Source of the DNA: a virus
DNA length: 64,000 nucleotides
Reading direction: 5' to 3' (one strand)
Virus record (IMG/VR): IMGVR_UViG_3300044815_000165
Coordinates: 1 to 64,000 of that record
In this document: in pieces, positions 29,020 through 50,249 of the stretch
Layout: each line of letters begins with the position of its first letter
Numbering within the stretch: position 1 is the first letter of the stretch
Notes under the pieces: model-generated
What the model was told of the DNA's origin: nothing
Seen by the model: the letters and a program-made list of their open reading frames with translations, nothing else
The model's database searches: none
Program-made: the position numbers and the translations under genes

Positions 29020-29553
29020 ATGGCAGCAACCGTCCTTATTCGCGAGTGGAACGGCACCACGGGTGTCCCCACGCAGACCGACAAGACATCGGGAACCATC
29101 CGCTACAAGCAGGCGAACGACTCGACGGTCGACGCGATCAACCCGCTCGTCAAGCCGGCGGCGGGCTCGCAGCGCAGCTTCGAGAAGTGGATGCAGCTCA
29201 GGATCGGGGCGACGCCGCCGACGGGGTCGATCACGAACCTGCAGTGGTACACCGACGGGTCGAACAACTACGGCACCGGCATCACCGCCTTCATCCGCAC
29301 GACCAACATCGCGAGCGGCGCGTTCGTCACGCCGACGACGCCGGCGAACGACGCGGCGGGCACGAGCCAGTTCTCGTTCGCCACCGGGTCGCGCAAGAAC
29401 ATGGACGCGGTGACGGCCGGCGCGCCGTACTCCGCGGCCAACACGGACATCGGCGACTTCGGCATCCTGTGGATGACGATCGACAGCACCGTGTCGGCGC
29501 CGCAGAACCCGACGTCGTCGGAGACGCTGACCTGGTCCTACGACGAGACCTAG
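29020..29553 (+). CDS. Putative virion protein (177 aa)
   Basis: 177 residues of Thr/Ser/Ala/Asn-rich beta-type sequence (MAATVLIREWNGTTGVPTQT, LQWYTDGSNNYGTGITAFIR, GDFGILWMTIDSTV, LTWSYDET). The ATG at 29020 was chosen because it has CTGGAGA about 7 nt upstream. Composition resembles small phage head or tail surface proteins. First gene of the accessory virion operon; no family recognised. Confidence 0.7.
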   Translation: MAATVLIREWNGTTGVPTQTDKTSGTIRYKQANDSTVDAINPLVKPAAGSQRSFEKWMQLRIGATPPTGSITNLQWYTDGSNNYGTGITAFIRTTNIASGAFVTPTTPANDAAGTSQFSFATGSRKNMDAVTAGAPYSAANTDIGDFGILWMTIDSTVSAPQNPTSSETLTWSYDET

Positions 29554-30503: not shown

Positions 30504-31703
30504 ATGCAGCTCGAACACGTCCGCTCACCACATGTGCAGGGCGTCGCGCCGCGGTCGGTGTACGGCGCTGGCGAAGACGCGCGAGCCATCGCCATCGCGC
30601 GCGAGGCTGCGAAGGGCAACATCCGGCCGCTGCCAGTGATCGCGGCGCGTCGCGTGATCGGCGTGGTCGGCGGACGCGAGGCATTCTCGGACGAGACCCA
30701 GTTCACGCCGCTCCGCCACGGTGCGCGCATGAGCGAGTTGCGCAGAACGATCGCTGACATGATCGACGTCCAGCGCGACGACTCCATCTGGCGCGCGCGG
30801 CAGCATCAGGAGCTGATGCCGGTCACCGACGCGAACCAGATCAGCGACTCGATGTCGAACGGCAAGAGCGGGGCGACCTTCTTCTCGAAGACGCCGTCCG
30901 CCGCGATGATCGCGAACAACTGGTACGATTACTGGCCGCTCGCGGGATCGCCGAACGCCGGCGGCATCGCCGGCACGGCGCGCACGGCACAGCGCTGGGA
31001 CGACACGAGCACTGGGGCACTCAATCACCGTGGCAACGTGTCGACCGACACGAAGCACACGGCGAGCCTCATGATGATCAACCAGGCGAATACGCCGTTG
31101 ACGATGCCGTACGACCGCGTCGGGTCGTGGGACGCGTGCTCCTTCACGACGTCGAACCAGACGTTCACGAACACGCTCTCGCCGCAACGCTACAACGCCG
31201 GTGCACCTGGTTTGCTGCCTGTGATGGTGACGAACACCGTCCTCAGCGCAACTGCCACGAACCTTATGCGCTTCGCGTACACCGACCAGGGCGGCACGAC
31301 CGCGCAGCTCATGCCGACGGGCACGACCGTCTCCGCGATCGTGTCGGCGGCGGCACCGACGACCACGCTCGGGGCTCGCGTGATCGCGCCGAGCACGAGC
31401 GCGAACACGTTCCCGTGGATCTTCCACCTGCCGCTCGCGTCCGGCGACAGCGGCATGCGCGTGCCCGAGGACTACACGTGGTCCGCAGCCAACACGGGCA
31501 CGTTCACGCTGATCGGCATGTACCCGTTCGGATACATCCTCAACCCGGTCGCGGCGATCCCGGCGGAGAAGGACTTCATCTACCAGATGCCAGCCCTCGA
31601 GCGCATGTACGACGGCGCGTGCGTCTCGTTCATGGCCTTCGTGCCCGCAGCCACGGCGATCGCGATCGCGCAGGGGCGCCTCTCCTTCCTCTGGCATTCA
31701 TGA
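30504..31703 (+). CDS. Tandem paralogue 1 of 4, putative virion protein
   Basis: 399 residues. The N-terminal 100 are basic and helical with an RRVIGVVGGR unit. The body has the shared blocks of this local family: NWYDYWPLAGSPNAGG followed by GTA; then WDACSFTTSNQTF with an aromatic-D-x-C motif; then SGDSGMRVPEDYTWSAANTG; and the end YDGACVSFMAFVPA leading to a final strand. The three following long genes share these blocks at low identity. AGGAG precedes the ATG. No known domain was recognised; repeated beta sequence and location suggest a surface virion protein. Confidence 0.72.
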   Translation: MQLEHVRSPHVQGVAPRSVYGAGEDARAIAIAREAAKGNIRPLPVIAARRVIGVVGGREAFSDETQFTPLRHGARMSELRRTIADMIDVQRDDSIWRARQHQELMPVTDANQISDSMSNGKSGATFFSKTPSAAMIANNWYDYWPLAGSPNAGGIAGTARTAQRWDDTSTGALNHRGNVSTDTKHTASLMMINQANTPLTMPYDRVGSWDACSFTTSNQTFTNTLSPQRYNAGAPGLLPVMVTNTVLSATATNLMRFAYTDQGGTTAQLMPTGTTVSAIVSAAAPTTTLGARVIAPSTSANTFPWIFHLPLASGDSGMRVPEDYTWSAANTGTFTLIGMYPFGYILNPVAAIPAEKDFIYQMPALERMYDGACVSFMAFVPAATAIAIAQGRLSFLWHS

Positions 31704-32806
31704 ACCTCGAAACGGCGCCAGCGATCCGCACGCGACGCAAGGCTCGTCAGAGCGAGCTGGACGAGGCGCGCGCGATCGAACGCGCGGCGTGGTTGTGGCG
31801 CGGTGTGCCGTTCCCGATCCCCGTGGTGTCGCACGGCAAGTACCTCGGCGTGGTGTGCGGCGACCGCGTCACGGAGGAGCCGACGTTCGTCGACGCGCTC
31901 CACGCGATGCCGATCTCGAGCACGTACGACGGTCACGTCGAACGCAACTGGGGCCGCAAGCAGCACCGCTTCACCTGGTCGGTACGGTTCGGCAACGGCG
32001 TGCTCGGCAACTGGTACTCGCTGTGGCCGTGCCTCGGCGATCCGGGGCCTGGCTTGTACACAGGCACGGCACGCGCCGCGGTCTCGTACACGCGCGCGAG
32101 CCCTGGCGCGATGCGCCTCGGCAAGGCCGTCACGCCGTCGCTGCGCTACGCGCGTCGCTGCACGGAGTTTCCGAGCGTCGACGCGGCGCACGGCTACGTC
32201 GTCGTCGATCGCGCCATCGCTTACAACGCATGCACGATGAGCGCGTCGTTGCAGTCGACGAACAACACCGTCACCGCGACGCGCAACATCAGCGCGGGCG
32301 AGCGCGGCTATCAGATCTTCGGCGTCGCCGACACCGTGCACAACGCGACCGCCGCATCCATGAGCGCGATGATCTACACCAACCAGGCAGGCACTGGATC
32401 GCGCAACGTCGACACGACCGTGACGCTCACCAAGATCGTGTCGCTCGCTGCACCGACCAACACGAACGGTGCGCGCAACCTCTTCCAGACACCCGGAGCC
32501 GCGACGCGTGGTCCTGCGACGCCGTGGATCTCGCTGCAGGCTGGTGATCGCGGCGTGCGGCAGATCGACAGCTACACGTTCTCCGCGGCGCCGACCGGAA
32601 CGTGCTGCTTCGAGCTGGACTTCCCGATCTACTTGTCACCCGACGGCTACCGCGGCGGCGCGGCGACCGACTACGAGATGATCTCCGGGATCGAGGCGCT
32701 GTACGGCGCGCGCCTCTACGACGATGCTTGCCTCACCGTGATCGGGTTCGGCACGACGGCGACCGACAAGATCATTCACGGAGCCATCGCAGTAGGCTGG
32801 ACCTGA
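31700..32806 (+). CDS. Tandem paralogue 2 of 4, putative virion protein
   Basis: 368 residues, starting in an ATGA overlap with paralogue 1. It has a basic helical start (PAIRTRRKARQSELDEARAI) and GKYLGVVCGDRVTEEP. The shared blocks follow: NWYSLWPCLGDPGPG with GTA, YNACTMSASLQSTNN, GDRGVRQIDSYTFSAAPTG and YDDACLTVIGFG, with a final beta strand ending GWT. Identity to the neighbours is low overall but the block order is the same, so duplication was followed by strong divergence. Confidence 0.72.
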   Translation: MNLETAPAIRTRRKARQSELDEARAIERAAWLWRGVPFPIPVVSHGKYLGVVCGDRVTEEPTFVDALHAMPISSTYDGHVERNWGRKQHRFTWSVRFGNGVLGNWYSLWPCLGDPGPGLYTGTARAAVSYTRASPGAMRLGKAVTPSLRYARRCTEFPSVDAAHGYVVVDRAIAYNACTMSASLQSTNNTVTATRNISAGERGYQIFGVADTVHNATAASMSAMIYTNQAGTGSRNVDTTVTLTKIVSLAAPTNTNGARNLFQTPGAATRGPATPWISLQAGDRGVRQIDSYTFSAAPTGTCCFELDFPIYLSPDGYRGGAATDYEMISGIEALYGARLYDDACLTVIGFGTTATDKIIHGAIAVGWT

Positions 32807-33921
32807 TGCTGGCGATCCACACCGAGAGCAAGACGCGGTTCCACCCGTCGCTCGTTTCGCACGTGCTGCGTCGCGCGGCGCGAAACATCGTCGGGACGGA
32901 GAGCACCGTCGGCGTCTACGCGGACGAGCGCTGCGTGGGGCTCGTGCGCGGCGAGAGCGGCAGTCGTCGCGTGCGGGTCAAGCCGATCACCCACAAGCAG
33001 TGGTGCGGCTTCAACGACCAGGCGGCGATCGAGGCGGCGGTGCGCGCCGGCAAGATCATCGAGCCCGTCTTCAACAAGGTGGCCAACGCCTTCAACTCGG
33101 TGAACGTGTGGGGCGACCTCTGGCCCGTCGGCTTCTACCCGCAGCAGGGTACGTACGGCGGCACAGCTGCGACGGCGCGACAGCTGGACCAGACCACGCC
33201 GGGCGCTTTCGAGATCCGCCACAAGACGCCGGGGGCCGGCGAGACGCGCCATTTCATGGGCGCGCACCAGGTCTCTCTTCAGAGCGGCGCTTCGACGGCA
33301 ATCGCGCAGGAGCAATGGCTCTACGACCGCACGCTCCAATACGACGGCTGCACGATCACCACGTCGACGACGACGATGACCAACACGATCACCGCCGCGC
33401 GCCACATCAGCGCGGGCGAGGACGGGTTGCAGATCTGCGTCACCGGCGTCGCCGCGCTCGGCGCGACGGCGAGCAACCTGACGAGCGTCGTGATCGTCGA
33501 CAACGCCGGCAACACGGCGGTGTCGCTCACGCCGGGCTACACGATGCCCTGGTGGACGAACGGTCTCGCCGGCGCATCCAACGCGCTCGCGCCCGTCGTC
33601 GTGCCACACGACAACGGCAACACGACCACGATCGCGCCGTGGCTGCCGATGCCTCCCGGCGTGCGCGGCTGCCGGTCGGTCACGAGCTTCGCGTCGTCGG
33701 CCAACAACACCGGAACCGTCGCGGTCACGCTCATCAAGCCGATCGCCTTCATGTGGACGTCGGCCGGATCGATCGTCCACAACCACGACAGCTCGCGCCT
33801 CGGCTTCCAGATGGGACGCGTCTACGACAGCGCGTGCCTGAACCTCCTGTTGCGGAGCTTCTTCAACAACGGCGGTGCCACGTTCACCAACTTCGGACAG
33901 ATCCGACTCGTCCACGGGTGA
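32806..33921 (+). CDS. Tandem paralogue 3 of 4, putative virion protein
   Basis: 371 residues from the ATG in a TGATG overlap. It shows the family order: CVGLVRGESGSRRVRV in the N-terminal part, WGDLWPVGFYPQQGTYGGTA, YDGCTITTSTTTMTNTITAA, PPGVRGCRSVTSFASSANNT and YDSACLNLLLRSF. The ISAGE segment (RHISAGEDGLQI) closely matches paralogue 2 (RNISAGERGYQI), making these two the closest pair. Function is unknown. Confidence 0.72.
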   Translation: MLAIHTESKTRFHPSLVSHVLRRAARNIVGTESTVGVYADERCVGLVRGESGSRRVRVKPITHKQWCGFNDQAAIEAAVRAGKIIEPVFNKVANAFNSVNVWGDLWPVGFYPQQGTYGGTAATARQLDQTTPGAFEIRHKTPGAGETRHFMGAHQVSLQSGASTAIAQEQWLYDRTLQYDGCTITTSTTTMTNTITAARHISAGEDGLQICVTGVAALGATASNLTSVVIVDNAGNTAVSLTPGYTMPWWTNGLAGASNALAPVVVPHDNGNTTTIAPWLPMPPGVRGCRSVTSFASSANNTGTVAVTLIKPIAFMWTSAGSIVHNHDSSRLGFQMGRVYDSACLNLLLRSFFNNGGATFTNFGQIRLVHG

Positions 33922-34292: not shown

Positions 34293-35435
34293 ATGCACCT
34301 GCAACAGGCGCCGTCGGTCCGAACTCGCTCCAAGACGCGCGAGTCCGACCACGACCGCGAGCGCGCCATCTGGCAGGCGCTGCAGGGTGCACGCTGCTCC
34401 GGCAACGACCGCCTCCTGCCCGTCTACTTCCGTGGACGCCGCATCGCTTGGGTCGCGAGCGATCTCGAGCGCTACGTCGTCCTCCGTCACGAGTCGTGGA
34501 TGGACAAGCACGTCGACCGCGTCGGTCGCCTCTTCGGGTGGACGCGGATCGATCACATCATTCGCGACTCGACACAGTTCGGCCAGGCGTGCGTGCGGAT
34601 GTGGTCGAAGAACATCTACAACTCCGGGCTGCTGACACCTCGGTGGCATCACCTCCACGGCGTCGCCGGCAACCCGGGCGCGAACACGTTCGCGGGCACA
34701 GCACTGCAGTCGAAACGTCACAGCGACGCACTCGACATGGGCATCGACCACGGCGGCAACGTCTCGCCAATGGTGAAGTTCCTGCTTGGCGGTGGTGCAC
34801 GCATCGGTGCTACCGGCACGTTCGCCGAGACCGCGCTGTTCCTGCTCTACGATCTCGTCGTGAGCTACGACCAGTGCGGGTTCGTCGCGGGCTCGCAGTC
34901 GATGTCGACGACCGCCGGCGTGAACGACGCGCTCCGCTACGTCGGCACGAACGATCCTGGCCTCGTCATCATGCCGATGACGACCGCCGCGAACGGCAAC
35001 ATCGCGTACACGTCGCTCGCGTACACGAGCGACACTGGAACCGCGCCCGAGGGCGCCGCCGCGGTGACGACCTCGCTACAGACCGTCTTCACGTCGGCTG
35101 CACCGACCGCGGGGGACCAGTGGGTCAGCGCGATCGAGTACAGCGGATCGCACTCGATGCTCAGCATCCCGCTCCGTGCTGGCGACACCGGCGTGAAGCA
35201 GATCGACAGCTTCACGATGGGTACCACCGTCGCCGGTCAGATCGCATTCCTCCTAGGCGGTCCGCTCGGCTGGTTCCCGGTACACGGTGGCGACTATTAC
35301 CATCCGATGGACTTCGTGAAGATCACTACCGAGGAGCCCGTGATCCTCGATGGTGCGTGCCTCACGTGGGTCATGCACAGCGTGTCCCTCAACCAGGTGT
35401 TCAGCGGTCACCTCAACTTCGCGTGGGGCTCATGA
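34293..35435 (+). CDS. Tandem paralogue 4 of 4, putative virion protein
   Basis: 380 residues. It has a basic helical start (SVRTRSKTRESDHDRERAIW) and FRGRRIAWVASDLERYV. The shared blocks are LHGVAGNPGANTFAGTA, YDQCGFVAGSQSMSTTAGVN, AGDTGVKQIDSFTMGTTVAG (very close to paralogue 2) and LDGACLTWVMHSVSLNQVF, with a final beta strand ending NFAWGS. It overlaps the repeat-protein gene by ATGA. It is the last member of the tandem family. Confidence 0.72.
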   Translation: MHLQQAPSVRTRSKTRESDHDRERAIWQALQGARCSGNDRLLPVYFRGRRIAWVASDLERYVVLRHESWMDKHVDRVGRLFGWTRIDHIIRDSTQFGQACVRMWSKNIYNSGLLTPRWHHLHGVAGNPGANTFAGTALQSKRHSDALDMGIDHGGNVSPMVKFLLGGGARIGATGTFAETALFLLYDLVVSYDQCGFVAGSQSMSTTAGVNDALRYVGTNDPGLVIMPMTTAANGNIAYTSLAYTSDTGTAPEGAAAVTTSLQTVFTSAAPTAGDQWVSAIEYSGSHSMLSIPLRAGDTGVKQIDSFTMGTTVAGQIAFLLGGPLGWFPVHGGDYYHPMDFVKITTEEPVILDGACLTWVMHSVSLNQVFSGHLNFAWGS

Positions 35436-37276
35436 ACCTCTGGAACCGGCCAGGCTTCGCCTACGGTCATCTCTACGGCAACCAGGTTGCCGTCGCGTGG
35501 CCTGGTCAGGAGTGGTGCGACCGCGGTCCGCTGATCTCGATGACGGTCGGCATGCCGCCGGACACGCTCACGGTGACCGGCGGCATGACGTGGATCATCC
35601 CGCAGAGCGTCGGCTCGTACACGCTCACCGCGACGGCGAACGCGGTCATCGGCGCGTCGCGCACGATCACCACCATCGCGAACGCGGTCATCAAGGCGCA
35701 GCAGGCGATCTCCGCGATCGCGAACGCGGTCATCGGGACGAGCTTCACCGACACCACCGTCGCGAACGCAGTGATCAAGGCTGCGCAGAGCATCACCGCG
35801 AGCGCGAACGCGGTCCTGCAAGGACATCAGTCGGTGACGGCGAACGCGAACGCGGTCGTGCAGGCGGCTCAGTCGGCGACGGCGAACGCGAACGCCGTGA
35901 TCAAGGCAGCGCAGACGCTCTCCGCATCTGCCGACGCCGTCATCGCTCAGAGCCACACCGTCACGTCGTCGGCCAACGCGGTGATCCAGGCAGCGCAGAC
36001 GATCTCCGCCGCAGCGAACGCTGTCGTGCTCGCGCAGCAGCTCGTCACCGCGAGCGCGAACGCCGTGATCGCGCAAACCCACACCGACACCGCGAGCGCG
36101 AACTCCGTGATCGAGGCACAGCAAGCCGTGTCCGCGGTGGCGAACGCCGTCATCGAGGCGCAGCAATCGTTGACAGCGTCAGCCGACGCGATCATCGCGA
36201 ACCGCCTCGCCGACACCGTCTCCGCCGATGCAGTGATCCAGGCAAAGCAGATCGTCACGGTCGCGGCCGACGCGGTGATCCAGGCCGCGCAAGGTGTCGT
36301 CGCGCAGGCGAACGCCGTCATCATCAACGTCGGCGGCACGCAAGTGTTCGTGGGTGCCGACGCCGTGATCCGGGCCGCGCAGATCGTCATCGCGCAGGCG
36401 AGCGCTGTCGTGCAGGCATCACAGATGATCACGGCGAGCGCGAACGCCGTCATCGGTGCCGAGCTGCTCCGAACCGTCGCCGCGAACGCCGTGATCAAGA
36501 CGAGCTTCTCCGACACCGCGAGCGCGAATGCAGAGATCGCGTTGACGTCCGTGGTCGTCGCGAGCGCGAGCGCCGTGTTGCAGCTGCGTTCGACGATCGC
36601 CGCGAGCGCGAGCGCGGTCATCCAGGCGCATCTCGACGGGACGGCGAACGCGAACGCGGTCGTGCAGGGGCATCAATCCGTTGCAGACGTGGCGAACGCC
36701 GTCATCGCTCTCCGTCACCAGATCCAGTCCTCCGCCGATGCAGTAGTCCGCGCAGCACAGAGCTTCAGCGCAAATGCCGACGCGATCGTGCGCTCCACCA
36801 TCAACCTCGTCGCGTTCGCGAACGCAGTCGTGCAGGCACATCAGGTCGTACCCGCAACTGCCGACGCCGTGATCCAGGCTGCGCAGTCGCACACAGCTGC
36901 GGCCGATGCCGAGATCGCGAACGCCATCTACCTCAGCCTCAACGCCGACGCGATCGTCAAGGCGCTGCAGACGGTGGGTGTCGACGGCAACGCGGTGATC
37001 CAGGGCAACATCCTCCAACAGCTCAGCGCGAACGCCTTCGTCGCACAACCAGAGATGCAGACGGCGAACGCGAACGCCGTCATCATCCTGCCGTACCCGG
37101 TGATCATCGGCCTCCTCAGCAGCGTCGGAGACCTGCTCGCGTCGCTCGCGCTTGGTCTCGAGATGGACGCCAGCATCACGTCGCGCAACGACCTCGCGAG
37201 CGACATCATCGAGGATGACGGTGCGCTCGGTGGTACGATCACGGTCCGCGATGACCTGGATGGAGACCTGACATGA
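35432..37276 (+). CDS. Giant 14-residue-repeat protein
   Basis: 614 residues from the ATG overlapping the previous stop. Residues 1-65 are a short non-repeat head with WNRPGFAYGHLYGNQ. From residue 66 to about 554 the chain is some 35 consecutive 14-residue units of consensus T-x-S-A-N-A-V-I-Q-A-A-Q-x-V; the ANAV/ADAV core is nearly invariant and the second half varies. The strict period and alternating small/hydrophobic residues suggest a beta-solenoid or a long rod. The last 60 residues are hydrophobic and then acidic (PVIIGLLSSVGDLLASLALG, RNDLASDIIEDD). It could be a fibre shaft or spacer; no homologue family was recognised. Confidence 0.8.
   Translation: MNLWNRPGFAYGHLYGNQVAVAWPGQEWCDRGPLISMTVGMPPDTLTVTGGMTWIIPQSVGSYTLTATANAVIGASRTITTIANAVIKAQQAISAIANAVIGTSFTDTTVANAVIKAAQSITASANAVLQGHQSVTANANAVVQAAQSATANANAVIKAAQTLSASADAVIAQSHTVTSSANAVIQAAQTISAAANAVVLAQQLVTASANAVIAQTHTDTASANSVIEAQQAVSAVANAVIEAQQSLTASADAIIANRLADTVSADAVIQAKQIVTVAADAVIQAAQGVVAQANAVIINVGGTQVFVGADAVIRAAQIVIAQASAVVQASQMITASANAVIGAELLRTVAANAVIKTSFSDTASANAEIALTSVVVASASAVLQLRSTIAASASAVIQAHLDGTANANAVVQGHQSVADVANAVIALRHQIQSSADAVVRAAQSFSANADAIVRSTINLVAFANAVVQAHQVVPATADAVIQAAQSHTAAADAEIANAIYLSLNADAIVKALQTVGVDGNAVIQGNILQQLSANAFVAQPEMQTANANAVIILPYPVIIGLLSSVGDLLASLALGLEMDASITSRNDLASDIIEDDGALGGTITVRDDLDGDLT
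35627..37092 (+). repeat. About 35 tandem coding repeats of 42 bp
   Basis: Each unit encodes one 14-residue repeat with a core such as GCGAACGCCGTGATC. Units are contiguous and diverged, and only one is irregular (around VINVGGTQVFVGADAV, with a 17/13 split). The 1.47-kb length divided by 42 agrees with 35 units. Protein-level conservation with varied codons indicates an old array under selection. Confidence 0.85.
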
Positions 37277-37713
37277 GCTGCACGAACGGGTGCGACAACA
37301 ACGCGTGCGTCACGTGTGGAGGCAGCGGTCCGCCCGTCTGCGTCATGCAGGGCGAGACGAAGACGTTCCTCCTGCTGGTGAAGGTGCTCGCCACGAAGGT
37401 GCCGCAGAACCTCGATCTCGTGAAGATCTACTTCACGGTCAAGGAGCGCGTCGACGACATCGCGCCGTTCATCCTGAAGCGCACCGTGGACGCCGGTGGC
37501 GCAGTCGGCGAGATCGTCATCGCGACGCCACAGGCGACGGCTGCGAACACGGGGCGCGCGACGATCACCCTCACGTCGGACGACACGAAGCTATTCAGGC
37601 CGGGCGTCGCGTACTGGTTCGACGTGTGGGTCGTCCTGCCAACCGGGGAAGAGCGTCCGGTGATCCGCCGGCGCCAGATCGCCGTCGACACCCGCATCAC
37701 CATCATCCCGTAG
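37273..37713 (+). CDS. Virion-associated beta protein with Cys-rich N-terminus (146 aa)
   Basis: Starts MSCTNGCDNNACVTCGGSG with five Cys in the first 15 residues, a possible metal site or disulfide cap. The following domain (METKTFLLLVKVLATKVPQN-like strands, KIYFTVKERVDDIAPFILKR, AYWFDVWVVLPTGEERPVIR) resembles the Ig-like domains of phage fibre and upper-baseplate proteins. ATGA overlap with the repeat protein and a GGAGA upstream of the start suggest co-expression and perhaps assembly with it. Confidence 0.7.
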   Translation: MSCTNGCDNNACVTCGGSGPPVCVMQGETKTFLLLVKVLATKVPQNLDLVKIYFTVKERVDDIAPFILKRTVDAGGAVGEIVIATPQATAANTGRATITLTSDDTKLFRPGVAYWFDVWVVLPTGEERPVIRRRQIAVDTRITIIP

Positions 37714-38146: not shown

Positions 38147-39613
38147 GTGACGGAACGTCGTGCCACCGTGACCATGCTCAGCAACGTGCGGTGCGTGGTC
38201 GACTTCAAGTACCCGGGGTTGGAAGCGAAGGCAGCGGAGAAGGAGCGCACGCGGATCGTCAACCTGCTCGACGACGCGCTCGCGATCGAGAACAAGGGTG
38301 CGCACTTCAACCCGACCGTCCAGAAGGGTCTCTGGGACGGCCGGCGTCACATGTTCTACAAGGACGGCTGCACCTTCGCGAAGGGTCTCATGCCTCGCCT
38401 GAAGAGCCTGTTGCGCGACGCGGGCTACAAGATCATGAAGACGAAGGACGAGCGCAAGAACGTCCCGACGGAGGTCGACCTCTCCATCGTGCAGCCCGAC
38501 ATGCTCGCGACGATCACGCTGCGCCCGGACCAGCTCCGCGTGATCAAGACGGCGCTGCGCAAGGGCTGCGGTCTTCTCCACGTCGCGACGGGCGGTGGCA
38601 AGAGCGCCGACGCGACCGCGATCATCAAGACCCTGATCGACAAGCGAAGCCTGTTCCTGGTCCACACGAAGCAGCTCCTCGGTCAGGCACGCAAGGAGAT
38701 CGCGAAGTTCCTCGGCACGATCGAGGAGTACATCGGCATCATCGGCGACGGCAACTTCAACCCGAAGCACATCACGGTCGCCACCGTGCAGAGCTTGTCG
38801 CGCGTCACGCGTGCCGATCAGAAGAAGATCATCGCGAAGTACCTCAAGACGATCGAGGTGCTCATCCTCGACGAGTGCCACCACTCGTCGGCGAAGTCGT
38901 TCTACAAGCTCCTGCAGCGGATCGACGCGCCGTGGCGCTACGGCTTGTCCGGCACGCCGTTCGGGCTCGCTGACGGCAAGGGGCTGATGGTGGAGGCCGC
39001 GTTCGGGCCGGTGTTCGAGCGCGTCACGAACGACGAACTGATCCAGCTCGGCATCAACGCCAAGCCGACGATCCGGATGATCGAGTCGAGCGTGCCGAAG
39101 CTCGACTCCGGGCTCGACTGGCAGAGCGTCTACAAGGAGGGGATCGTCCTCAACACCGCGCGGAACATCCTCGTCGCCAACCACGCCGCCGCGTTCGCGA
39201 AGAAGAAGTGGCCGACGCTCGTGATCGTCCGCGAGCTGTGGCACGGCGACAACCTGGCCGAGCTGCTCCGTGATCGCAGCGTCGCGCACGCGTTCGTTCA
39301 CGGACAGATGTCGACCACCGAGGTCGAGCGTCAGAAGGTGAGGCTGACCGAGGGCAAGATCCACGTGCTCATCGCGTCGCCGATCTTCGGCGAGGGTGTC
39401 GACATCCCGTCGGTGCGCGCGCTCATCGTGGCAGACGGCGGGCAGTCGACCGCGGCGGTGCTGCAGAAGGTTGGACGTGGTCTCCGATCGAAGAAGGGTG
39501 ACAACCGTCTCGACGTCATCGACTTCGCAGACACCACGCACAAGTGGTTAGCCAAGCACAGCCAGGAACGGATCGCACTCTACGAAGGCGAAGGTTTTGA
39601 AGTCTTGATGTGA
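38147..39613 (+). CDS. SF2 DNA helicase (UvsW-like)
   Basis: 488 residues. An ATP-dependent helicase with Walker A HVATGGGKSA (about 145-154), motif Ia/Ib (LFLVHTKQL), DECH box VLILDECHHS (about 238-247), motif III SGTPF (about 269) and the C-terminal helicase lobe ending in VLQKVGRGLRSKKGD. A T4 UvsW-like role in recombination, branch migration or replication restart is likely. The N-terminal 110 residues (FNPTVQKGLWDGRRHMF) match the DNA-binding start of UvsW-type proteins. GTG start 6 nt after the -10 box, leaderless. First gene of the replication region. Confidence 0.85.
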   Translation: MTERRATVTMLSNVRCVVDFKYPGLEAKAAEKERTRIVNLLDDALAIENKGAHFNPTVQKGLWDGRRHMFYKDGCTFAKGLMPRLKSLLRDAGYKIMKTKDERKNVPTEVDLSIVQPDMLATITLRPDQLRVIKTALRKGCGLLHVATGGGKSADATAIIKTLIDKRSLFLVHTKQLLGQARKEIAKFLGTIEEYIGIIGDGNFNPKHITVATVQSLSRVTRADQKKIIAKYLKTIEVLILDECHHSSAKSFYKLLQRIDAPWRYGLSGTPFGLADGKGLMVEAAFGPVFERVTNDELIQLGINAKPTIRMIESSVPKLDSGLDWQSVYKEGIVLNTARNILVANHAAAFAKKKWPTLVIVRELWHGDNLAELLRDRSVAHAFVHGQMSTTEVERQKVRLTEGKIHVLIASPIFGEGVDIPSVRALIVADGGQSTAAVLQKVGRGLRSKKGDNRLDVIDFADTTHKWLAKHSQERIALYEGEGFEVLM

Positions 39614-40268: not shown

Positions 40269-40834
40269 AGGAAATCAACAAGCGACACCTCGCGGCGTGG
40301 AACGTCGGGAAGAAGATCTTCGGGTACACCGGAGATCTGCCGAAGCCTCGCGGACTCCTGATCGGTGAAGCGCCGGGACCGAACACGAACGCGAAGCTCC
40401 CGCTGTTTCCGAGCCCTGCAGGCAGCGCCGCCGGCAGACTTCTCAGCTACGCGAACATCCACGCGATGGAGTGGATGGGGAAGCTCGTGCGCGTCAACCA
40501 GTGTGGAGACGAGCAGTGGTCGAGCCGTGCCGCGTGCGCCGGCCGCGTCGCGGCGACATCGTTCTTTCTCGATCCGAAGAACTTCCACGACGGCAAGCCG
40601 CTGCGTGTGCTCCTCCTCGGCGCGGATGTCGCGCGCGCATGGTCTTGCTACGGACCCTTCGGGAAGGTGACCTGGATCTTCTCCGACAAGGGAGACATGA
40701 CGGATGCCGTTCGTGTCGAGGTCGCGTGGATCCCGCACCCGTCGGGACGAAACCTGATCTACAACGAGCGCAAGAACCAGCTGCGTGCTGGTCGCGCCGT
40801 TCGGTGGGCGATCGGAGAGCGTGATCAACCGTGA
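40265..40834 (+). CDS. Uracil-DNA glycosylase superfamily-like protein
   Basis: 189 residues from a GTG in a GTGA overlap. It contains the two UDG-family landmarks: RGLLIGEAPGPNT with GEAPG at 34-38 (water-activating and binding loop), and VAWIPHPSGRN at about 154-163 (the HPSxxN motif). The interior (FFLDPKNFHDGKPLRVLLLG) fits the family core. It may remove uracil or act on modified bases, or be a catalytically altered relative. Location before the helicase and primase supports a DNA-metabolism role. Confidence 0.72.
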   Translation: MKEINKRHLAAWNVGKKIFGYTGDLPKPRGLLIGEAPGPNTNAKLPLFPSPAGSAAGRLLSYANIHAMEWMGKLVRVNQCGDEQWSSRAACAGRVAATSFFLDPKNFHDGKPLRVLLLGADVARAWSCYGPFGKVTWIFSDKGDMTDAVRVEVAWIPHPSGRNLIYNERKNQLRAGRAVRWAIGERDQP

Positions 40835-41340
40835 AGCAACGATCTCAGTTTGACGCGGTCGCCGAGGAGGTCACTGCGGCGCCTTCGTGGAAGGTCATCC
40901 AACGATTCTGGTCAAGGATCAACAAAAACGGACCGAAGCAACCGCACATGAAGACGTGTTGTTGGATTTGGACTGCTGGAACCGCAAACGGGTATGGCGT
41001 GATCTGGTGCAACGGTCAGACTCGACGTGCAACGCATCTCGCATTCTTCCTATCACATGGACGATGGCCGAATCCATGCGCACTGCATCGCTGCGATGTT
41101 CCAGCATGCGTGCGGCACATTTTTGAAGGAACTCGACAAGAAAATATGGTCGACATGATCCGCAAGGGTCGCGATCGCAAGGCTGTTGGAGAGCGCGCAT
41201 CACGCACCAAGTTGACAACGGCGCAGGTGAAGGCGATCCGCCAAGAACGTGGATCATCTCGAGCGGTCGGCAAGAAATTTGGGGTTTCCCACACCGCAGT
41301 GGTTTTGATCCGTAATGGATCAACATGGAGTCATGTGTGA
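40831..41340 (+). CDS. HNH homing-type endonuclease (NUMOD-like)
   Basis: 169 residues with a GTG start inside the previous stop. It matches the HNH_3/intron-endonuclease pattern: CCWIWTAGTANGYGVIW, ATHLAFFLSHGRWPNPCALH, RCDVPAC, GTRQENMVDMIRKGRD. It ends with a DNA-binding helix region (SRTKLTTAQVKAIRQERGSS, KKFGVSHTAV). The usual Asn-Pro-x-His after CDVPAC is shortened to RHIFEGT, so activity is uncertain. The gene is noticeably more AT-rich than its neighbours, a sign of recent acquisition. It separates the UDG-like gene from the helicase. Confidence 0.8.
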   Translation: MKQRSQFDAVAEEVTAAPSWKVIQRFWSRINKNGPKQPHMKTCCWIWTAGTANGYGVIWCNGQTRRATHLAFFLSHGRWPNPCALHRCDVPACVRHIFEGTRQENMVDMIRKGRDRKAVGERASRTKLTTAQVKAIRQERGSSRAVGKKFGVSHTAVVLIRNGSTWSHV

Positions 41341-45636: not shown

Positions 45637-46119
45637 ATGGCTAAGAAGACTCTGTTCACAGTGACGTTGCCGGCGACCGTGTCCGTGCTCGTCGAGGCTG
45701 GCGACGAGAAGGATGCCGTGACGGCGGCGATCGAGAAGGCGAAGGCCATCCTCGGTGCCTCGGCCGGCATCCTCAGCATCGTCGGTGACGCCAAGGCGAT
45801 CGCCGTCGGCGGTGGTGGCAAGAAGAAGGCGGACGACGCCGATGACGAGCCTGCTCCGAAGAAGAAGAAGGCGGTCGTCGAGGAAGAGCCGGAGGAGGAA
45901 GAGGAAGAAGAGGAGGAGGAAGAGGAAGAAGAGGAGGCTCCCAAGAAGAAGAAGAAAGCCGCCGCCGAGGAGGAAGAGGGAGAGGAAGAAGAAGAGGAGG
46001 AAGAGGAAGAAGAGGAGGAGGAGGAGCCGGCGCCCAAGAAGAAGAAGAAGACCGACGACGACGATGACGAGAAGAAGCCGGCGGGTAAGACCAAGATCAA
46101 GCTGAAGCTCAAGGGCTGA
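45637..46119 (+). CDS. Small beta domain with poly-Glu/poly-Lys tail (160 aa)
   Basis: The first 55 residues (LFTVTLPATVSVLVEAGDEK, DAVTAAIEKAKAI) look like a compact alpha/beta domain. The remainder is alternating blocks of Glu (runs of 15 and more) and Lys/Ala/Pro (APKKKKKAA), ending GKTKIKLKLKG. Alternating charged blocks could bind polymerase, clamp or basic partners through phase-separating or bridging contacts. AGGAG precedes the ATG. It lies just before DNA polymerase. Function unknown. Confidence 0.7.
   Translation: MAKKTLFTVTLPATVSVLVEAGDEKDAVTAAIEKAKAILGASAGILSIVGDAKAIAVGGGGKKKADDADDEPAPKKKKAVVEEEPEEEEEEEEEEEEEEEAPKKKKKAAAEEEEGEEEEEEEEEEEEEEEPAPKKKKKTDDDDDEKKPAGKTKIKLKLKG
45879..46054 (+). 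repeat. Purine-rich GAG/GAA low-complexity tract
   Basis: Two long stretches of GAG/GAA codons (about 45888-45936 and 45970-46025) separated by AAG-rich Lys codons. The strand bias is nearly all purine and might form triplex structures. It is the DNA basis of the poly-Glu/poly-Lys tail. Confidence 0.8.
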
Positions 46120-50089: not shown

Positions 50090-50240
50090 GTTGAGATGGC
50101 GGAAGTAGGTAGACGCGCCAGCCTAGACGTGACCCGATAACGGGCGCGTCGAAGCGGGTGTCTGGTAGCCAACGGGTTGCGCTGCAGCCGCGCTCGTTGC
50201 GTTCGCATCGGACTTGCTGGTTCGAGTCCAGCTCTCAACA
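50090..50240 (+). tRNA. tRNA-Leu-like element with unexplained internal expansion
   Basis: A perfect 7-bp acceptor stem (50090-50096 with 50233-50239), discriminator A, a Leu-type D arm (TGGCGGAAGTAGGTAGACGC, 50097-50116) and a T arm (GCTGG-TTCGAGT-CCAGC, 50216-50232) are all intact. The total is 151 nt, about 65 nt longer than a normal tRNA-Leu. The anticodon stem CCAG (50118-50121) finds its partner CTGG only at 50162-50165, and the variable region is about 50 nt. Hairpins CCCG-ATAA-CGGG (50133-50144) and GGTTGC-GCT-GCAGCC (50175-50189) lie inside. No anticodon can be assigned. The 3' end is 1 nt from the recA ribosome-binding site. It may be an intron-bearing, decayed or decoy tRNA. Confidence 0.6.
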
Positions 50241-50249
50241 CGAGGACAC

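Follow-up and report, generated by a model that had tools for sequence, protein, structure and literature searches.

A tandem 14-residue repeat protein of a contractile-tailed phage belongs to a widespread viral family and is a candidate fibre shaft

What does a tailed phage build from a protein that consists almost entirely of one short repeat? This question is raised by a gene in the stretch of viral DNA analysed here, which is called the window in the following and comprises the first 64,000 nucleotides of the 89,133-base record IMGVR_UViG_3300044815_000165. Comparison with the PHROGs library identified a major head protein, tail sheath, tail assembly chaperone, baseplate and wedge proteins, followed by helicases and a DNA polymerase; judged by these profile matches, the inventory shows that the window virus is a contractile-tailed phage. 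Baseplate genes and further large late genes precede the repeat gene, and a DNA helicase gene at 38147 follows it at a short distance. The coordinates of the gene, its repeat array and its surroundings are compiled in Table 1.

Table 1. Positions of the repeat gene, its parts and the neighbouring genes in the window.
Feature	Position	Strand	Remarks
Small gene	29020..29553	+	ORF listed from 28936; relatives located close to the repeat genes of L074, L041 and L066
Paralogue 1	30504-31703	+	
Paralogue 2	31700-32806	+	
Paralogue 3	32803-33921	+	
Paralogue 4	34293..35435	+	ATGA overlap with the repeat gene
Repeat (proposed fibre-shaft) protein gene	35432..37276	+	614 aa, ~61.5 kDa, pI 4.5, ATG start
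N-terminal 68 residues, non-repetitive	35432..35635	+	
35 tandem units, consensus A-N/D-A-V-I-x-A-x-Q-x-V/I-T-A-S	35636..37111	+	
Unit 17	36308-36355	+	16 aa, the sole unit deviating from 14 aa
C-terminal tail (non-repetitive) and stop codon	37112..37276	+	
Next gene, proposed rod anchor or adaptor	37273..37713	+	146 aa; ATGA overlap; weak link to the BppU type

The array extends over residues 69-560 of the repeat protein and is composed of 34 units of 14 residues and a single unit of 16. The first-pass annotation had described about 35 tandem 14-residue repeats with a near-constant ANAV/ADAV core, located at 35627-37092 between a non-repetitive head and tail. The repeat number, the core and the two flanks were all confirmed, and the bounds of the array had to be shifted to those of Table 1. 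The core is conserved to a conspicuous degree: alanine occupies position 1 in 34 of the 35 units, asparagine or aspartate follows in 32 (serine in the other three), position 3 is again alanine in 34 and the subsequent residue is valine or isoleucine in 32, and position 5 is isoleucine, valine or leucine without exception (35/35). The identity at a lag of 14 residues within the array amounts to 0.40, compared with a maximum of 0.174 among 1000 shuffles of the same residues, and a DNA pattern of three spaced cores has 16 occurrences in the window and none in any of 100 dinucleotide shuffles. On the DNA level the units have diverged, with a mean identity of 0.53-0.55 between them (six lags tried), and the alanine at position 3 is encoded by GCC in 14 units, GCG in 13, GCA in five and GCT in two, the remaining unit having a serine. 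The core residues are hence kept via different codons, which shows that the repeat is maintained as protein; it looks like an old repeat under selection on the protein rather than a fresh DNA satellite.

This observation bears on another explanation of the locus, in which the array would be an artefact of low complexity or mistranslation, or the protein would not belong to the virion at all. The DNA does combine a high G+C content with repetitiveness, and parts of it have open antisense frames. Nevertheless, the conservation through different codons speaks against an artefact, and so does the coding-type composition of the gene, whose G+C content by codon position (0.64/0.48/0.87) resembles that of its coding neighbours. 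The repeat moreover recurs in viral loci that span a wide range of base composition and share recurring neighbours (see below), and we regard this explanation as very improbable.

The distribution of the repeat among other viruses was investigated with the DNA pattern for three spaced cores, which retrieved 103 stretches (loci) from IMG/VR, and with a four-unit protein profile that was built from 391 segments of these loci with the window left out. This window-free profile matches the window protein with E=1.3e-61 over 15 stretches; none of 500 shuffled window proteins was matched at E<=10 with filters off. At E<=1e-6 this profile detects the repeat in 62 of the 103 loci, located on 55 contigs, and its matches among these loci are not independent because it was built from segments of the same loci, a reservation that does not apply to the window. 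The 61 strongest loci have a G+C content of 41-68%, and the unit of this wider family reads A-[DN]-A-V-[IL]-x-x-T-Q-[ST]-G-S-[FL]-T. The repeat had initially been noticed in one protein, and its confinement to that protein is refuted by its wide distribution.

Searches of other kinds added little to this picture. A whole-protein search among ten pattern stretches confirmed no relative, and tblastn of the window protein and three relatives against 50,697 phage records retrieved nothing, with low-complexity sequence masked, so that cultured phages may still have the repeat. The relative L009 gave two matches to the phage records, one of which, in Rhodococcus phage Shagrat, overlaps the minor tail protein gene 22. 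The other, in Aeromonas phage BUCT552, runs antisense to an annotated gene and was dismissed as a chance match. A four-core pattern located at least 119 loci in genome contigs. Among those listed, L210 is a strong member according to the unit profile (E=1.3e-125); three weak loci (E 6e-9 to 3e-7) display a composition bias and were not counted, and the remaining listed loci have no unit-profile match at E<=1e-6. Most in-frame rows among the listed loci represent 7-residue or other tandem repeats. Over 5,257 bases, L210, whose label is that of a Diapherotrites archaeon, has the same sequence as L100, a viral contig with the repeat; the two accordingly represent one virus contig and no independent find. 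Their identity is a hint of a DPANN host, or else reflects a binning error.

Curated resources do not name the family. The repeat protein stays below the cut-off of every Pfam and NCBIfam model, and the PHROGs and NCBIfam libraries contain nothing that matches at E<=1. The best Pfam match is LbR_Ice_bind (E=0.0012), whose 19.3 bits stay below the cut-off of 30 bits; BAR_3 follows with E=0.58, and in the PDB a sequence match at E<=1 was obtained for the structure 3ult alone (E=0.78). The initial statement that the repeat belongs to no standard family thus holds for the curated libraries, which are without a match above cut-off. A literature search by titles and the beginnings of abstracts, with most subscription journals outside its scope, found no description of this 14-residue repeat. 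By the standard of sequence comparison, it is an unnamed family that is widespread among viruses and of which we found no description.

Structure prediction with AlphaFold2 points to a beta fold. For the full-length protein, aligned with 37 other rows (alignment A1: 37 of 42 stretches used, one overran its locus and four were left out without a test), the repeats were modelled as strands with a pLDDT of 67. A shorter construct of 238 residues, comprising units 1-16 and the 14 preceding residues as a single chain, was predicted with 68 other rows (alignment A3: 68 of 80 stretches used, 12 left out without a test); its best model is strand almost throughout and reaches a pLDDT of 89.5 and a pTM of 0.85, the other four models scoring 62-73, and all these values have to be read with the bias toward a regular answer that stems from the assembly of both alignments in register. 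In the VIA comparison, the best 238-residue model was superimposed on SufD with Z 15.2 and an rmsd of 3.8 Å over 219 residues, on an archaeal SMS complex protein with Z 13.3 and 3.5 Å over 220 residues, on UpaB with Z 10.5 and 3.4 Å over 192 residues, on the curli subunit CsgA with Z 16.9 and 7.7 Å over 193 residues and on the grass ice-binding protein (3ult) with Z 9.2 and 7.6 Å over 109 residues, where for repeats a Z below about 13 may reflect just a shared arrangement. We take all five to be beta-solenoids of either hand; the model has its lower rmsd values with those taken to be right-handed, which suggests a right-handed solenoid. The Foldseek searches of the PDB and BFVD remained without a match at E<=0.001, the best BFVD row (1.1e-3) being an uncharacterised protein of an uncultured phage, and a fold that is missing from these lists is not excluded thereby. 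Of the new solenoid or rod fold that had been envisaged for the repeat, the beta rod is supported by the prediction and the newness is not, given the resemblance of the better model to known beta-solenoids and the weak LbR_Ice_bind match.

A helical rod, in which 14 residues would correspond to two heptads of an alanine-rich coiled coil, is an alternative to the beta fold. The period equals 2 x 7, positions 1/8 and 4/11 could serve as d and a, and the BAR_3 match is likewise in its favour. The hydropathy of the window units has the same power (0.21) at period 2 and at period 3.5, and the Chou-Fasman averages of the family are 1.055 for helix and 1.043 for strand; hydropathy periodicity and Chou-Fasman values, as sequence-based measures, do not decide between strand and helix. 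When the coiled-coil frame is applied to the units, however, the most hydrophobic position 5, always isoleucine, valine or leucine, falls outside a and d, and position 8 is polar on average. The wider family favours glycine, serine, phenylalanine or leucine, and threonine at positions 11-14 and has a hydropathy power of 0.05 at period 3.5, and the repeats are strands in both AlphaFold2 runs. The coiled coil is improbable in our assessment. In the beta-solenoid that we favour, each 14-residue unit would form one coil whose interior would be lined by the conserved alanine, alanine, isoleucine and valine.

The comparison of relatives indicates how the array may change in length. In six pairs with about 60% identity or more, taken from the best 18 pairs among 28 sequences, 11 of the 13 gaps of at least 10 residues are multiples of 14, the two others measuring 151 and 10 residues; the pairs are not all independent, as L026 and L087 come from the same contig. 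The picture is noisier among more distant pairs, where numerous gaps deviate from multiples of 14 (e.g. 12, 32, 99 and 373 residues between L057 and L100). At the level of sequence, the whole-unit gaps fit a rod that grows or shrinks by complete coils, and rod length would accordingly evolve by their gain and loss.

The genomic environment of the repeat gene is fibre-like in several respects. The four genes immediately upstream, each encoding about 370-400 residues and interrupted by one small ORF between the third and the fourth, had been recorded as virion-type paralogues. Their paralogy is well documented, since all six pairs align with a best E per pair of 6e-29 to 2e-4, the weakest pair giving only 0.02 in the reverse direction. 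The designation as virion-type, in contrast, relies on their position and on a relative in L109 and on no named family: the four products have no match in the family libraries (the best being SnoaL_4 with E=0.14 for the third), and two relatives of the paralogues are adjacent in L109, ahead of a gene that appears fibre-like by eye. The reported ATGA overlap with the last paralogue is present, and we found a second one with the downstream gene at 37273-37276. Further upstream, the small gene of Table 1 encodes a product whose relatives were detected by blastp in L074, L041 and L066 (E=7e-21, 3.6e-7 and 5.6e-4).

Three observations from the region beyond the repeat gene are recorded here in their own right. 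The ORF at 40831-41340, which to us reads like an HNH homing endonuclease, has a third-position G+C content of 0.55 compared with 0.79-0.90 in its neighbours and is probably a recent insertion. The sole predicted tRNA of the window, a tRNA-Cys (gca) at 50148-50241, comprises 94 nt and is thus long for a tRNA-Cys; an intron, an odd variable arm or a false call are possible. Finally, the gene at 45637-46119, just ahead of the DNA polymerase gene, contains long GAG/GAA runs (21-bp tandem repeats) that encode a very acidic stretch.

A further feature of the relatives is the gene that follows the repeat gene. Among 8,397 listed ORFs of the 103 loci, we distinguished three small connector-like types, the BppU type having been grown from one seed that itself adjoins a repeat gene. 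The position directly 3' of a repeat ORF, with the frame opening within 250 nt, is taken by 20 of the 24 BppU-type ORFs, four of the five of the gp77 type and three of the four of a third type. Conversely, 48 loci are usable in the sense that the stop of the repeat ORF is present with more than 350 nt beyond, and in 26 of them a connector-like gene lies directly 3' on the strand of the repeat (BppU type 20, gp77 type 4, third type 2); none of the three types directly follows the repeat in the other 22. L041 is also connector-positive and falls outside the 48, because fewer than 350 nt follow its repeat ORF. One BppU-type neighbour scores 25.9 bits with the Pfam model BppU_N, above the cut-off of 23.1, and a gp77-type neighbour passes the model Gp77, "Podophage GP4 fiber-tail adaptor protein", with E=5.9e-25. 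BppU_N matches neither the third-type neighbours nor those of L005 and L076. In several relatives (e.g. L073 8910-10178, L009 131-1357) the BppU-type gene is followed by an ORF that is glycosyltransferase-like by eye and starts like 'AKVLWLGDAGCHTGFARVTH'; it may be part of the same cassette.

In the window, the next gene encodes a 146-residue product from 37273. This product is matched by phrog_1084, a family of unknown function (E=6.6e-4), which also matches BppU-type and third-type neighbours of the relatives (E=6.5e-4 and 3.6e-4), and phrog_1084 may therefore be a BppU_N-like connector family, as far as such profile matches indicate. A direct hhalign comparison with the BppU-type set yields P=32% and E=4.8e-4. 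Moreover, the product is 32% identical to a C-terminal domain in L107, and that domain aligns with the BppU-type set at P=92.5%. An HMM of 19 BppU-type neighbours scores the product with only 1.5 bits, and among the Pfam models, including BppU_N with its cut-off, none matches it at E<=1. Taken together, these comparisons link the window product weakly to the BppU type. BppU-like genes are also found directly after repetitive or LamG proteins in two cultured viruses, namely after gp57 of Roseobacter phage CRP-6 (L110 6733-8001) and gp7 of HRTV-25 (L111 2605-7314). The sequences of both proteins differ from the window repeat, which indicates that such a neighbour is not confined to the repeat, and a long fibre-like protein followed by a small BppU-like gene may represent a general layout.

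The predicted beta rod and the fibre-like gene setting, with connector-like neighbours in 26 of the 48 usable loci, lend partial support to the early comparison with fibre shafts. On balance, and with moderate confidence, we favour the reading that the repeat protein forms a surface-fibre shaft in this contractile-tailed phage. With one unit per solenoid coil, 35 coils at the rise of 4.8 Å per coil of the LPBR heads would form a rod of about 17 nm; the next gene would encode a BppU-like connector through which the rod, or its receptor-binding partner, is attached to the virion, and the fibre would presumably serve in host adsorption.

The same rod could in principle be mounted on the head, as a head fibre or capsid decoration, instead of the tail. 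By eye, the repeat gene of L041 lies downstream of a capsid-like ORF, and in HRTV-25 the LamG protein and the BppU_N gene are located shortly ahead of terminase and portal; this LamG protein, however, lacks the repeat as judged by eye. The position in the window argues for the tail, since the repeat gene follows tail sheath and baseplate genes and is separated by about 33 kb from the gene of the major head protein. Its equivalent in L061 follows long ORFs that resemble tape-measure and tail proteins by eye, and in phages with a known role for BppU or gp77 these proteins serve as tail connectors (PMC3893620; Pfam name for gp77). A location on the head is accordingly unlikely.

More tentatively, the window gene may exemplify a widespread class of viral fibre shafts, namely an alanine-lined beta-solenoid with 14-residue coils whose length varies by coils, which forms a cassette with a small connector gene and occurs in distantly related tailed viruses, the BppU-like or gp77-like connectors being exchangeable; we consider this generalisation conceivable, if doubtful. 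Phage fibres and their connectors help to set which cells are bound, and many fibre genes of uncultured phages are unannotated. With a recognisable 14-residue unit and an adjoining connector-like gene, such fibre genes would be findable by pattern, and the length of the rod would be readable from the sequence.

Among characterised proteins, the heads of the trimeric autotransporter adhesins YadA and BpaC invite comparison. According to PMC9543794, these LPBR heads have a rise of 4.8 Å per coil, and those of BpaC consist of 14-residue LPBR repeats. The repeat length (34 of 35 units in the window) and the predicted parallel beta-solenoid are shared, theirs being part of a surface adhesin, whereas the motif described there, GxNSVAIGAxSxAx with its conserved glycine at position 8, is absent from the window units, in which glycine attains at most 3/35 per listed position. 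The search of Pfam at E<=1 detected no trimeric-autotransporter stalk or membrane beta-barrel domain in the repeat protein. YadA-head, for which Pfam presumably has a model, also gave no match at E<=1. In structure, the LPBR left-handed beta-roll 7o23 is the top VIA row for the low-confidence full-length model (Z 12.1, rmsd 8.7 Å), whereas the 238-residue model is closer in rmsd to the solenoids taken to be right-handed. The grass ice-binding beta-roll has a repeat of similar length, and its relationship to the window protein consists of the sub-cut-off LbR_Ice_bind match and the VIA row reported above.

These likenesses raise the alternative that the repeat forms a flat surface of the LbR type, a left-handed beta-roll as in YadA heads or the grass protein, that chiefly binds ice, a glycan or another ligand instead of acting as a spacer. 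LbR_Ice_bind as the top Pfam match, 3ult as the sole PDB sequence match and a VIA row, the repeat length of the BpaC heads and the first rank of 7o23 for the full-length model are all in its favour. The score below the Pfam cut-off, the conserved LPBR glycine that is without a counterpart in the 35 units and the lower rmsd of the better model to presumably right-handed solenoids count against it, and we assign little probability to a primarily ligand-binding surface. A fibre shaft of a different architecture, the triple beta-spiral of adenovirus and reovirus, has a repeat of about 15 residues with a conserved Gly/Pro turn and forms a trimer; the window units have a period of 14 and show no conserved glycine or proline.

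The comparison with known phage connectors concerns the neighbours of the repeat protein, not the repeat protein itself. In TP901-1, 18 BppU link the Dit core to the receptor-binding proteins (PMC3893620). Of the 48 usable loci, 24 have a relative of BppU (20) or of gp77 from podophage GP4 (4) directly behind the repeat gene, the link of the window neighbour being the weak one described above. Within the ADAV repeat family, at least one relative (L049) has Laminin_G_3 domains, which the window protein lacks. The window units differ from the wider family in their end, which is V/I-T-A-S instead of [ST]-G-S-[FL]-T, with valine or isoleucine at position 11 and alanine in place of phenylalanine or leucine at position 13, whereas the length of 14 residues and the core A-[DN]-A-V-[IL] are the same.
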